Positions 17,608 through 26,479 of a stretch of DNA of 40,296 bases are shown piece after piece. Within the stretch, counting starts at the first letter, position 1; each line of letters starts with the position of its first letter. The stretch lies in NCBI RefSeq assembly GCF_947302755.1, contig NZ_CAMYWM010000007.1, forward strand, positions 1 through 40,296, read 5' to 3'. The notes below the pieces were generated by a model. That model ran no database searches and was not told the DNA's origin. It saw nothing but the letters and a program-made list of their open reading frames with translations. The translations under genes and the position numbers were made by a program. This DNA is from an uncultured Anaerovibrio sp. Lineage in GTDB: Bacteria > Bacillota > Negativicutes > Selenomonadales > Selenomonadaceae.

Positions 17608-17659
17608 CGTAGACGGCTTGTGGGGTTGCAGGCCAAAATAACATCATGGAGGAATGGTT

Positions 17660-19867
17660 ATGAAATTACGAAAGGTATTGGCAATTTTTTGGATGATATT
17701 GCTGATGCTGACGGCAACATCCTACGCGGAGAATACGGAAAATCCGATTATAGCTGACACACAAAACGGTTATTTACGCATGGATGTTCCTTATGTCAAA
17801 GAGGTTAAGTTCTACGGGCGCAGTTATATTCGATGTGCCTTTTCTACCCACGAAGAGCAGTATTTGCCTTATGGAATACCTGTGGTAAATGAAATTGGTA
17901 AGGACTATGTTTTGTTCGATCCAATTGATGATACGGTAACATATTTCCGTAATCCTATTCACATTGAGAACGTGACAATGTGTAAATACCGCTTTGTAAA
18001 AATTTCCGGTAATACACTTACGGTATACAACACAGTAAAAAGCATGTTCCCGGATCTGTGCAATAAGGTGATTGCGGCCAATCGGTCCTTCGACGCTGCA
18101 TATGGCGATGCTTTTAACCAGGCAGAAAGGGCTGTAGATGAAAAGGATTGGGACAAGGCATACAAGTTTTTAAAGAAGCTCTACGATGACGGCTGCCATG
18201 ATCATGCTATTATTCGTGATCTGGGCAAGGCATGCTGGGAATTGGGGAATTATGATGAAGCCCTGGAGTGGGACACCAAGCGTATTGAAGTTACGCCTAA
18301 TGCAGCAACATATAATAATAGGGCATGGCATAATTACTTATTGGGAAATTATGAACAGGCCCTTGATGATGCCAACTGGGCAGTAATGAAGGATAAGGAA
18401 GATGACAATTATCTTGATACAAGAGGCTCTATTTATTACGCATTGGGCCAATATGATAAGGCCATGGCGGATTTTAATAAGAGCTTGGAAATAAATGACA
18501 AGTCGGCTCATACCTATTATTATCGGTCTTTGTGCAATCAGGCATTGGGCCGGATGAGTGAGGCGGACTCTGACTACGGGAAGGCTGAGAAATACGATCC
18601 TAATATCATAGACGATATTGGTAAATTCCAACATGAACGTTTGAAGCACGCCAACGCCAAGCAGCAGCGTCATCAGGGCAAGATGAATAAGTACAAGGAT
18701 GACTTAAAGAAGCTGAATGATGCTATATACGTTACCAATAATTCTTCCCAGTTCCCTGCCAGAACCGTATGGGAGAATGATGGGGTTATTATATCGGTTA
18801 TTGGTAACATAAAGCAAAACGAAAATGATGATTTTTATAAGGAAGTAGTACCACAGGAGGTACGGACCAAGTATGAGGGCGGCGTATATCAGCAGCAGTA
18901 TGAACAGCTGGGTCCAGAGGTTAACGCAGCTGCTCCTATGCCTGGTACCGGCAACGGTCCGCAGCTGGCTTCTGACGGTGCTATTGCCGCTGCACCAAGC
19001 ACCCTGCCAACTAACAGCTCTGAGGAAATTTATGACTTGAATAGTACTGTCCTGAAATATTACTCAGAGGGACAGCGGTATATCCTTTCCTATGAAGACC
19101 CAATTAAGACCTACAATTACCTGAAGGCTAATTATGGCCCAACTACTGTGGATTTCGTTGACCGTCCACATGGTAGATATCTGTTTAAACAGGATTATGG
19201 TTATATTTGGGGTGACTTCTCCTTCGATTACGATTATGATACCCATGAATATCTCATTTATGATGGTGCCGGCTTAAAGCAGGCAGTTCGTTATGATGAT
19301 GGGAATGAGGCTGTTATAGTAAGGGATTTTGTTAATAGTCAGGAAAGTGGCGTATATGAGTACAGTCAGCCATTGGCTGCTTATGTTCTGTATCCACAGA
19401 ATTACACCATTAAGCCACACATTTTAACCTTGGTACGTAACACTATTTTCAATGGTGACAGTGAAATCGGTGCCCAGTACGAGGTGCAGGATGGCCGTGG
19501 GGTAATATATGAGGTAGCGCTGTATCCTGAAAAGGAAGCAGAAGCCCGTCCAAACCTGCCTGCTATGTGGTATAAGATGACCAATGAAGATAATCCAAGC
19601 GTGTGGACTGCATTTACTTATGATCAGGCCACAAATGTGTTTACCATGTATGCTAATGACGGAACAACAATAATGAATTATGCCAAACGGTGGTTTACTG
19701 ATGCAAATCATATCGAAAACCATTTGACTGATACTCCGTTGAATGGCGCAATGGATGGCGTATATGAGCGTACCAGCTCCGGCGAGTACTACAGTGGTTA
19801 TAGCAGTATTTTCACCTATGTAACTGATGGTTTGTTTAACTTCATGCATTATGTAAAGAAATTCTAA
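17660..19867 (+). CDS. Secreted TPR-repeat protein of unknown function, 735 residues
   Basis: The start ATG 17660 is preferred over 17654 because GGAGGA ends directly before 17654. The N-terminus is a classic signal peptide: MKLRK, hydrophobic VLAIFWMILLMLTA, and a likely cut after TSYA. Residues about 160–330 contain four or five tetratricopeptide repeats (ACWELGNYDEALEWD, AWHNYLLGNYEQALDDAN, IYYALGQYDKAMADFNKSLE, ALGRMSEADSDYGKAEKYDP). Then comes a Lys-rich helical linker, a Pro/Ala/Thr-rich spacer near 430–460, and a C-terminal part rich in Tyr and Asp with beta-like segments (DYGYIWGDFSFDYDYDTHEY). The C-terminal part is not a family I know. It stands alone between its own promoter and terminator. 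Location would be envelope or outside; TPRs suggest protein contacts. Confidence 0.85.
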   Translation: MKLRKVLAIFWMILLMLTATSYAENTENPIIADTQNGYLRMDVPYVKEVKFYGRSYIRCAFSTHEEQYLPYGIPVVNEIGKDYVLFDPIDDTVTYFRNPIHIENVTMCKYRFVKISGNTLTVYNTVKSMFPDLCNKVIAANRSFDAAYGDAFNQAERAVDEKDWDKAYKFLKKLYDDGCHDHAIIRDLGKACWELGNYDEALEWDTKRIEVTPNAATYNNRAWHNYLLGNYEQALDDANWAVMKDKEDDNYLDTRGSIYYALGQYDKAMADFNKSLEINDKSAHTYYYRSLCNQALGRMSEADSDYGKAEKYDPNIIDDIGKFQHERLKHANAKQQRHQGKMNKYKDDLKKLNDAIYVTNNSSQFPARTVWENDGVIISVIGNIKQNENDDFYKEVVPQEVRTKYEGGVYQQQYEQLGPEVNAAAPMPGTGNGPQLASDGAIAAAPSTLPTNSSEEIYDLNSTVLKYYSEGQRYILSYEDPIKTYNYLKANYGPTTVDFVDRPHGRYLFKQDYGYIWGDFSFDYDYDTHEYLIYDGAGLKQAVRYDDGNEAVIVRDFVNSQESGVYEYSQPLAAYVLYPQNYTIKPHILTLVRNTIFNGDSEIGAQYEVQDGRGVIYEVALYPEKEAEARPNLPAMWYKMTNEDNPSVWTAFTYDQATNVFTMYANDGTTIMNYAKRWFTDANHIENHLTDTPLNGAMDGVYERTSSGEYYSGYSSIFTYVTDGLFNFMHYVKKF

Positions 19868-23416: not shown

Positions 23417-23437
23417 AATTAATATTTGCCCTTTACG

Positions 23438-23473
23438 GCTGCCGATTGAAATAGCTCAATTGGCAGCTTTTTG
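23438..23473 (+). terminator. Terminator of the second symporter gene
   Basis: GCTGCCGATTGA (23438–23449) pairs with TCAATTGGCAGC (23456–23467), then five T residues. Confidence 0.85.
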
Positions 23474-23495: not shown

Positions 23496-23537
23496 TTGAC
23501 TTTTATTGGTGCTCCTACCATAATTATCAGGTAGGAG
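23496..23537 (+). promoter_or_regulatory. Promoter with perfect dyad upstream of the P-type-ATPase-like gene
   Basis: TTGACT (23496–23501), 17 bases, CATAAT (23519–23524). A perfect 8-base inverted repeat, CTCCTACC (23512–23519) and GGTAGGAG (23530–23537), straddles the -10 box. The AGGAG of the right arm is also the best ribosome site for the ATG at 23548. This placement suits a repressor operator. Confidence 0.6.
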
Positions 23538-23547
23538 TTGGTAAATT

Positions 23548-24678
23548 ATGTTTGATTATTTCCTGGAAAACAGGCTTGTGCTTTACGGCATGATTGCCGG
23601 TATTTTTATAATAGTCAATCTGCTGGCCTATTTGCTGTTGAAGCTTGTACTGCCATGGCAGGCCATGCGAACCTTAAAAAAATATAAATTACATGTCAAA
23701 AATCGTCATAAGCTGCCCCTGCTCAATCTTACGGGCCAGCTGGTAATGGGCCTGTCCGGGGCTGTTACCAAGGGGGTGCCCTTTGTATATGATATTATTC
23801 CGGCGGGAATTGCTCCCTCCAAGCTGATGACCTTTGCCGCCTCTGCTGAAGCGGGAATTGACCATCCATTGGCCGGGGCCATTGCTGAATGGGCGGAGGA
23901 GAAGCAATTGGAGCCCTGGGCGGCATCGGCCAACAACGCAGTGCCCGGTAAGGGGGTAGAGGCCCTTATAAATCATCAGGAGGTTCGGGTGGGTACTGCC
24001 GGCTTCCTGCAGGAACACGGGGTGAAAATTCCGGCAGAAATCCTTACCAGGGCTGATCAATTGGCCGGTAAGGGGAATGTGGTAGCCTTCGTGAGTATCA
24101 GCGGCTTTTGCCGTGGCTTTATCGTGTTTGGTGACTACCTGCGCCCCACGGTGCCTGGGGCCGTTAAGCTGCTGAATGACTATGGTATATCAACAACCAT
24201 AATCACAAGTGCCGCAGGCAGTACGGCCCGTAACCTTGGGCGGCAGGCGGGAATAAGCAATGTTTATTCTGAGCTGAACGCCATGGAGAAGGCCAAGAAA
24301 ATTACTATTATGAAAACCACCGCTTCCCTGATAGGGGCGGTGGCCACCACATATAATTCCCATGTTCTGGCCCAGTCAGCCGACATCAGCTTTGCCCTCA
24401 GCATCAGTGATGAGGCCATAAAGGAGCAATGTGATGTTTATGTGGATAGTGTGGACTTTGGTAATATAATGAGCGGGGTGGATATTGCCCGCTATACCTA
24501 TAGCAAGCGGAAAACCGGCATTCTGGTTACGGTGCTGTTTAACCTGGTGCTGGGAGCAATTACCAGCTATATTGTGGCCGAGGCGGCCCTGCCGTTTTTT
24601 GCCCCGGTTATGCCTGTCCTGGCCGGGGTGTTGTTCCTCATTGGCTTACTGGCCAATCAGGTCACCTATAATTATTGA
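23548..24678 (+). CDS. P1B-type ATPase-derived membrane protein lacking all catalytic motifs
   Basis: 376 residues with an intact frame. It aligns by eye to the soluble and last membrane parts of heavy-metal P-type ATPases. One helix is at 11–36. GLSGAVTKGVPFVYDI (68–83) stands where DKTGTLTxGxPxV should be, so the phosphorylated Asp is Gly68. The N-domain is kept: DHPLAGAI with His106-Pro107, then GKGVEA and VRVGTAGFL. In the P-domain TGDN is replaced by TSAA (220–223), Lys248 remains (MEKAKKI), and GDGINDAP is replaced by ATTYNSHV (266–273). Two helices near 325–370 match the family's last pair. The transport helices and the CPC site are absent. It cannot be an ordinary pump; a regulatory or scaffold role is a guess. 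Own promoter with a dyad; a TPR gene follows 20 bases later. Confidence 0.8.
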   Translation: MFDYFLENRLVLYGMIAGIFIIVNLLAYLLLKLVLPWQAMRTLKKYKLHVKNRHKLPLLNLTGQLVMGLSGAVTKGVPFVYDIIPAGIAPSKLMTFAASAEAGIDHPLAGAIAEWAEEKQLEPWAASANNAVPGKGVEALINHQEVRVGTAGFLQEHGVKIPAEILTRADQLAGKGNVVAFVSISGFCRGFIVFGDYLRPTVPGAVKLLNDYGISTTIITSAAGSTARNLGRQAGISNVYSELNAMEKAKKITIMKTTASLIGAVATTYNSHVLAQSADISFALSISDEAIKEQCDVYVDSVDFGNIMSGVDIARYTYSKRKTGILVTVLFNLVLGAITSYIVAEAALPFFAPVMPVLAGVLFLIGLLANQVTYNY

Positions 24679-24698
24679 TTATGAAGGAGCTAAAAATT

Positions 24699-25403
24699 AT
24701 GGATAAAGAAGAGTTTTCTTATTTGGTAGATACTGTCCTTGATAACGCTGCCCGTCCCCCTAGGGATTTATTTGCCAACGGGTATGATGACTGGCATTGT
24801 CGGGCCCGCCTGGGGCATTTTCTGGCCATGCCGGAATTTAACAATACGGACAAGGCCAAGGAACTGTTCCTGTCGGTGCTGGAGGTGGAGCCGGATGAGG
24901 AAAACAGCCAGGATGTGGAGGAAAAGGCCTATGCCCTCCAGCATTTAAGTCAGCTGGAAAAAAAGGAAAAGGATTACCGAAATGCACTTGAGCATATTAA
25001 TCGGGCAATCGAGCTGGCCGAGTCCTATGATTATCTCTATAAATATATTCTGCGGGGAGAGCTGTGGGCGGACCGCTGGAATATCATGCATCTCATGAAG
25101 CAGACTGAGGATGCGGAAGCAGAGGTGGATGAACGCATTGAGGTTTTCAAGGATATCCCTATAGAGCATAACAGCTATCTGTATTATGGGTACCGCTTCA
25201 AGGCCCAGCTGGCTGCCGAGCGGGGAGTTCCCCTTGTGGCCAAGGATTATATGCATATGGCTTTGCATAATATGGAGATTAATGAGCAGCACAAAAAAAG
25301 GCTGGATCAGGCCTTTGCCGCTACCCACGATAATATTTCCTGGATTTTGTCGGAAATTGACAAGGCTACCCCTAATCCTGACAATTTGCATTGGGATATC
25401 TAA
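24699..25403 (+). CDS. TPR-like protein of unknown function
   Basis: 234 residues from ATG 24699, with AAGGAG at 24684–24689; an in-frame ATG at 24681 lies upstream of that site. Soluble and acidic. Helical repeats include KAKELFLSVLEVEPD, a LSQLEKKEKDYRNALEHINR pair typical of TPR, and KDYMHMALHNMEINEQHKKR. It starts 20 bases after the P-type-ATPase-like gene and is most likely translated from the same mRNA, so the two may act together; no other clue to function. The last codons overlap the predicted promoter of the small RNA at 25421. Confidence 0.82.
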   Translation: MDKEEFSYLVDTVLDNAARPPRDLFANGYDDWHCRARLGHFLAMPEFNNTDKAKELFLSVLEVEPDEENSQDVEEKAYALQHLSQLEKKEKDYRNALEHINRAIELAESYDYLYKYILRGELWADRWNIMHLMKQTEDAEAEVDERIEVFKDIPIEHNSYLYYGYRFKAQLAAERGVPLVAKDYMHMALHNMEINEQHKKRLDQAFAATHDNISWILSEIDKATPNPDNLHWDI

Positions 25404-25556: not shown

Positions 25557-25600
25557 CAATTGGATAATTCATAATGTATTTTTTTAAGGGAGTGGGAACA

Positions 25601-26479
25601 GTGAGTTCCGATAAAATCGAAATTTTGGCCAATGCAAAAATAAATCTTACCCTGGATATATTGGGTAAGCGGGAGGATGGCTACCATGAGGTGGCTATGG
25701 TCATGCAGGAGGTAAGCCTCCACGATACCCTGTATTTGGAAAGGCTTGACGCGGGAATTGAGCTGGAGATTATGGGGTCGGAGCTGGCACCGGACAAGTC
25801 CAATCTGTGCTACCGGGCGGCGGAGCTGATAATTGAGGAATGCGGCCTGACAGAGGGAGTAAGGATTAAGCTTCAGAAGCGGATTCCCCTTGCCGCAGGC
25901 TTGGCAGGAGGCTCCGCGGATGCAGCTGCTGTATTGAAGGGCATGAATCAGCTGTACCAGCTTAAGCTGTCGGAGGAAAAGCTATGCCAGCTGGGGGCGC
26001 GTCTCGGTTCAGACATTCCTTTTTGTATAATGGGCGGCACCATGCTGTCCACCGGCCGGGGGGAGCTCTTGGAGCGTCTGCCGGATTTCCCTGAGGTGGA
26101 TATAGTCCTGGCAAAGCCTAAGGTGGGGGTGTCCACTGCCTGGGCCTATAATACCTACGATGCCGGCTATGAGGGCCCTCACCCTGATAACAAGGCCATG
26201 ATACAGGCCATTGGCCAGGGGGATATAGCGGCTGCAAGTAAATTGTTGTGTAATGTGTTGGAACGTGTTACTATAAATGAGCATGCCATTATTGACCAAT
26301 ATAAGAATAAAATGCTGGAGGCAGGAGCCTTGGCAAGTATGATGTCAGGCAGTGGTCCTACGGTGTTTGGTATTGCCCCCAATGAAGCGGTGGCGGATAG
26401 GATGGCGGCAGCAATCAGGCATTTTGATAGTGAGGCGGCTGTGTTTACCGCAAAAACTGTTGGCAGAAATAGAGGTTAA
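25601..26479 (+). CDS. ispE: 4-diphosphocytidyl-2-C-methyl-D-erythritol kinase
   Basis: GHMP kinase of the methylerythritol phosphate route to isoprenoids; it phosphorylates CDP-ME with ATP. AKINLTLDILGKREDGYHEV near the N-terminus, the ATP loop PLAAGLAGGSADAAAV (about 94–109) and MMSGSGPTVFGI near 245 are all present. The frame is open from 25574, but GTG 25601 is preferred: AAGGGAG lies 9 bases before it and the product begins MSSDKIEILANAKIN as in relatives, 292 residues. The gntR gene begins 2 bases after its stop. The order ispE–regulator–glmU–prs parallels Bacillus ispE–purR–(yabJ–spoVG)–glmU–prs. Confidence 0.93.
   Translation: MSSDKIEILANAKINLTLDILGKREDGYHEVAMVMQEVSLHDTLYLERLDAGIELEIMGSELAPDKSNLCYRAAELIIEECGLTEGVRIKLQKRIPLAAGLAGGSADAAAVLKGMNQLYQLKLSEEKLCQLGARLGSDIPFCIMGGTMLSTGRGELLERLPDFPEVDIVLAKPKVGVSTAWAYNTYDAGYEGPHPDNKAMIQAIGQGDIAAASKLLCNVLERVTINEHAIIDQYKNKMLEAGALASMMSGSGPTVFGIAPNEAVADRMAAAIRHFDSEAAVFTAKTVGRNRG

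Follow-up and report, generated by a model that had tools for sequence, protein, structure and literature searches.

A conserved P1B-ATPase-like protein without catalytic motifs in Anaerovibrio, a putative nucleotide-binding pseudoenzyme

What can be the role of a copper-pump-like gene in which the catalytic motifs are replaced, yet the reading frame is intact? The question is raised by a stretch of 40,296 nt from an uncultured Anaerovibrio sp. (NZ_CAMYWM010000007.1, positions 1 to 40,296), here called the window, in which an uninterrupted frame at 23548..24678 on the plus strand, as are the other features given below between 23437 and 26479, encodes a product of 376 aa followed by a stop. We refer to this truncated P1B-ATPase-like product as pseudo-CopA. 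From comparative sequence data we consider it rather probable that pseudo-CopA is a repurposed, membrane-anchored nucleotide-binding protein, predicted to be non-catalytic, which may act as an energy-state switch or scaffold. Its descent from CopA, the loss of motifs in the phosphorylation (P) domain, purifying selection, a predicted fold and retention of the pocket in the nucleotide-binding (N) domain are supported by the results presented here.

The window protein matched the P1B-type ATPase profile TIGR01525 (E 7e-29, profile positions 235-540 of 560), with a score of 101 bits, far under the curated cut-off of 346, and copper-pump chains in the PDB were matched with a best E of 1.3e-25. Pfam reported PF00702 alone, the HAD-like hydrolases, at 38.4 bits against a gathering cut-off of 26.4; the nucleophilic Asp of these hydrolases is missing. 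In alignment to the intact CopA of genome G030 and to Archaeoglobus fulgidus CopA, GLSGA stands in place of DKTGT, and Gly68 (23749..23751) occupies the site of the phosphorylated Asp. The comparison with G030 further showed TSAA (residues 220-223, 24205..24216) where TGDN is expected, and ATTYNSHV (residues 266-273, 24343..24366) where GDGINDAP is expected. Lys248 is retained, as are both nucleotide motifs of the N domain, HP (His106-Pro107) and GxG (Gly134-Lys-Gly136). The initial annotation, which had described a full frame with these replacements and with the HP motif, Lys248 and the last two helices preserved, was thus correct in its essentials.

The AlphaFold2 (AF2) model predicts a P+N fold with three membrane helices, as the structure prediction proposed in the initial annotation was to examine. 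An N-terminal helix (residues 9-45, 23572..23682) occupies the position of the CPC helix, transmembrane helix (TM) 6, according to the model, the alignment with intact CopA and hydropathy, with NLLAYL in place of the CPC-type metal motif. Two C-terminal helices (residues 306-344 and 354-372, 24463..24663) take the TM7 and TM8 places by model and hydropathy. TM1-5, the actuator domain (TGE) and the metal-binding domain are absent as judged by Pfam, alignment and the AF2 model. Hence the transport helices had been described too broadly as gone; TM1-5 are missing, but a degenerate CPC-type helix remains. Compared to CopA-type P1B ATPases (A. fulgidus and L. pneumophila CopA, and Megamonas CopA at loci L045 and L087), pseudo-CopA lacks the Asp, TGD, GDGxND and CPC motifs in addition to TM1-5, the actuator and the metal-binding domain. 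The trees and the predicted fold support that pseudo-CopA shares descent and a P+N fold with P1B-type ATPases.

As the lost parts form a single N-terminal block, one might think of an active ATPase split over two genes, the second of which would supply the actuator domain and first helices. The Asp itself is missing, however, and the PF00122 (actuator domain) matches in the 16 genus genomes fall in frames of 620-924 aa with four exceptions (534 aa in G002, 282 and 602 aa in G005, and 262 aa in G010). On account of the lost Asp and this search we rejected the split ATPase, which we regard as extremely improbable.

To obtain the ratio of non-synonymous to synonymous rates (dN/dS) we applied our own Nei-Gojobori script to ten Anaerovibrio pairs, with the whole gene taken as one unit. 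The ratio was 0.034-0.139 in nine of the ten pairs, the tenth being saturated; several pairs have dS above 1, and the four with dS below 1 gave 0.034, 0.071, 0.074 and 0.113. Among comparison genes from Anaerovibrio pairs, ispE gave 0.050-0.148, while glmU (0.013-0.065) and gntR (0-0.036) are more constrained than the pseudo-CopA gene. Purifying selection on the gene is about as strong as on ispE. With the enzyme fold retained by prediction and the catalytic residues lost, pseudo-CopA has the properties of a pseudoenzyme.

A relic in decay could be suspected from the loss of catalytic motifs and domains, from long branches in some lines (G173), from an in-frame stop in G152 and from genera g11 and g22, which have no copy beside ispE. 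Against this stand the low dN/dS, open copies without internal stop in all 16 genus genomes (the other 15 share 38-83% identity with the window protein), and conservation concentrated in the N domain. The frame thereby contrasts with a P1B fragment in one genus genome (G001:C66:47773-48624), which carries two internal stops and looks decayed. We find decay very hard to credit, and rejected it on dN/dS and open frames. The 16 open copies, the family-wide losses, the dN/dS values and the single clade described below give strong support to the suggestion of retention and repurposing instead of decay. The stop in G152 (G152:C278:9177-10169, locus L162) is one in-frame TAG within the match, either local decay or an assembly error.

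We surveyed 189 genomes of the family Selenomonadaceae, bacteria of gut and rumen, from 30 genera at a match threshold of E 1e-25. The window protein had matches in 135 genomes and 26 genera. Hits beyond Anaerovibrio were to Selenomonas, Pectinatus, Schwartzia and Megamonas, and intact CopAs are included among them. It should be noted that counts are lower bounds, since at least one (G016) of the 54 genomes under the threshold has such a frame lacking DKTGT. From 128 of the matching genomes 129 proteins were gathered; the other seven (G099, G102, G117, G138, G143, G161 and G210) stand outside the motif table. Seven proteins were classed as intact ATPases (those of G024, G030, G084, G085, G151 and G204, plus the second G163 protein), leaving 122 proteins from 22 genera in what we call the dead lineage. 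The Asp site there is non-Asp in 117, Asp in one (G034) and unscored in four, so the same kind of losses, which the initial annotation had proposed to look for in homologs, is found family-wide. The G034 member (L059 6244-8184) has Asp in DRSGT together with TGD, and has lost GDGxNDxP.

In the dead lineage Gly136, Glu138 and Gly149 are invariant (122/122 each), followed by Glu101 (115/122), His106 (113/122) and Gly134 (91/122). When 375 columns are ranked by conservation, 14 of the top 16 fall in the N domain (residues ~76-195, 23773..24132), with the Asp column at rank 196; the set was retrieved with the window protein as query and is thus biased towards members whose N domain resembles it. 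Glu101, His106, Gly134, Gly136 and Gly149 (23848..23994) are at positions which we take, from work on CopA and ATP7B, to form the ATP pocket, and the A. fulgidus CopA alignment shows the correspondence of these residues and no more. The initial annotation had guessed at a nucleotide- or metal-sensing regulator. The nucleotide part gains some support, as the putative pocket columns are conserved while the catalytic sites drift, but the metal part gains none.

A metal sensor might be expected from ancestry in a csoR-linked copper pump. Here the CPC motif and the metal-binding domain are gone, the 40 best columns show no new conserved ligand set in their place, and among the 40 loci examined (frames of at least 80 aa) a csoR cluster was seen beside the intact CopAs of L045 and L050 only. 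Metal sensing therefore seems highly improbable.

To place these losses we inferred a careful tree with 111 rows. Of these, 60 were taken from the 129 proteins of the family, 54 of them dead and 6 intact, and the remaining 51 were further ATPases. All 54 dead rows fall on one side of one branch with support 100/99, and the closest sequences across it are Megamonas-type CopAs (G030 and G204). Mapped on a quick tree, the Asp state requires a minimum of two changes, which may be a pair of losses with G034 retaining the Asp, or a single loss and a regain. The short N terminus likewise requires two. On these trees the Asp appears to have been lost once or twice, and TM1-5 on two separate lines. The actuator domain still scores above the Pfam cut-off in two copies from the Pectinatus group (g6). 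An actuator stretch under the cut-off is seen in one copy each from g47, g20 and g7 and in one of two from g5, and Pfam detected no such stretch in the second g5 copy or in the g12 and g21 copies. This N-terminal pattern looks like stepwise reduction.

The genomic position gives a further clue to the origin. The ispE gene (25574..26479 in the window), which served as an anchor, lies at most four genes from a P1B-like gene in 27 of the 40 loci. In G030 an intact csoR-copA adjoins ispE, and in G084 (L283 1841-14280) the order is ispE, csoR, intact copA, cydA, cydB, two ABC genes, a divergent frame and a gene for a tetratricopeptide repeat (TPR)-like protein. A copper-pump gene thus stands at the head of a cytochrome bd operon in L283; bd oxidase is not known to contain copper. 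In G036 (g22) cydA is next to ispE with no P1B gene in between, and in G079 (g11), where cydA is also near ispE, we recognised no P1B gene between the two, but the interval holds a frame of unassigned identity. We suggest that a copper-type P1B-ATPase was probably encoded next to ispE, as csoR-copA-cydABCD, in an ancestor of the Selenomonadaceae. Together with the Asp, the metal site and the remaining motifs of the P domain would have been lost, as would the actuator domain and, on two lines, TM1-5.

This position also raises the possibility that pseudo-CopA is a dedicated cytochrome bd accessory that serves the assembly or the regulation of the CydABCD system. In at least 39 of the 135 matching genomes, from 9 genera, a same-strand cydA begins 156-995 bases past the end of the match; among the cydA matches listed, 37 go with a dead-lineage copy and 2 with an intact CopA, and these linkage counts are lower bounds. 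It is directly the next gene in 9 of the 40 loci, cydA, cydB and two ABC proteins were confirmed by Pfam in L049, and the TPR gene comes after cydABCD in L064 and also in L283, where a divergent frame intervenes. In Anaerovibrio, on the other hand, the cydA match is on other contigs in 11 of the 16 genomes, and the remaining five have no cydA match and all retain pseudo-CopA. Two of these, G012 and G013 (JC8 and RM50), are 99% complete, and dN/dS between them is 0.063 at dS 1.08. The dead gene is likewise kept with no cydA match found in g5, g12, g14 (G028) and g7, and in g11 and g22 no P1B gene was recognised where cydA lies near ispE. An association with cydABCD is frequent, but because genomes without a cydA match keep the gene, retention does not need it. 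A strict tie to cytochrome bd is weakened accordingly, and we judge the accessory role unlikely, if the most plausible of the alternatives.

For pseudo-CopA as an energy-state switch or scaffold, the following mechanism can be envisaged. The membrane anchor and the N-domain ATP-pocket residues are retained, and a nucleotide (ATP or ADP) bound between domains N and P would open or close them, with neither a phosphoenzyme nor hydrolysis. A partner at the membrane might read this domain movement, and in Anaerovibrio the most evident candidate is the product of the neighbouring TPR gene. Nucleotide binding, the regulatory role and the partner are what we infer here.

Pseudo-CopA might instead modulate an intact P1B-ATPase in the same cell, for example through mixed complexes or metal-chaperone competition. 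Each of the 16 genus genomes does have at least one ATPase above the P1B cut-off, and G000 has four; in G000 those ATPases are on other contigs, most transport helices of pseudo-CopA are lost, and nothing observed points to mixed complexes. Such modulation appears quite unlikely.

The TPR-like gene (24699..25403, 234 aa) starts with ATG 24699, 20 bases after the pseudo-CopA stop. It is adjacent to pseudo-CopA in 15 of the 16 genus genomes, the two genes being on different contigs in G004, and is a direct neighbour also in both g5 genomes and in g12. That it should always be the neighbour holds only in part, as g13 has the dead gene with no TPR match (E 1e-20); because of this the TPR protein is not an obligate partner. 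Conversely, g8 and g11 have the TPR gene with no dead-gene match (E 1e-25), and a strict tie between the two is weakened from both sides. TPR gene matches were found in 101 of the 189 family genomes at E 1e-20, most with 51-92% identity, so that the gene is highly conserved. Its protein had no NCBIfam match at E 0.1, and TPR_8 scored 21.1 bits, under the Pfam cut-off of 25.7.

Pseudokinases and other pseudoenzymes are well studied, and we rate pseudo-CopA as a pseudoenzyme made from a P-type ATPase. Truncated variants of eukaryotic P-type ATPases exist, such as PINA of ATP7B and truncated SERCA1, and they have transport-helix loss in common with pseudo-CopA; they are variants of an active gene, whereas pseudo-CopA is a separate orthologous lineage without the Asp. 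Searches of the open-licence PMC literature gave no report of a pseudo-P-type ATPase of such kind. Human TMEM94 has a P-type-like architecture and is reported to bind AMPPCP with micromolar affinity with no detectable ATPase activity (PMC12134183); unlike pseudo-CopA it is full-length and eukaryotic, with an A-like domain and ten helices. Its status is disputed, as another paper describes ERMA as the ER Mg2+ ATPase (PMC13322241). We speculate, with somewhat less than even confidence, that one bacterial family holds a conserved class of pseudo-P-type ATPases in which P1B pumps became non-hydrolysing membrane-bound ATP sensors, and in which two independent reductions led to one shared minimal form of one helix, P+N and two helices. 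The apparent series within one family, much of it at one gene position, starts from intact csoR-copA-cydABCD and runs through near-full-length dead forms (g6, Pectinatus) and actuator-reduced or actuator-lost forms to minimal forms of ~376-450 aa, and the use of a non-pumping P-type ATPase therefore becomes testable.

Some local elements were read from the sequence or found by pattern scan. A promoter-like site TTGACT-17-CATAAT (23496..23524, 10 of 12 consensus matches) lies ahead of the pseudo-CopA gene, in agreement with the promoter proposed in the initial annotation, but it is a consensus match only and counts as weak because similar sites in the region exceed the shuffled expectation (10 versus 3.6). 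Hairpin-type and promoter-type patterns are both commoner in the region than in its shuffles. The proposed dyad corresponds to a hairpin with a T run at 23437..23468, which is terminator-like and lies after the upstream SDF transporter gene. Possible ribosome-binding sites are AGGAG (23533..23537) before ATG 23548 and AAGGAG (24684..24689) for the TPR gene. Further upstream, at 17654-19867, the window holds a frame of 737 aa that opens with a signal-like segment and contains TPR-like repeats, matched only in L032 among the 40 loci, which differ in reach.
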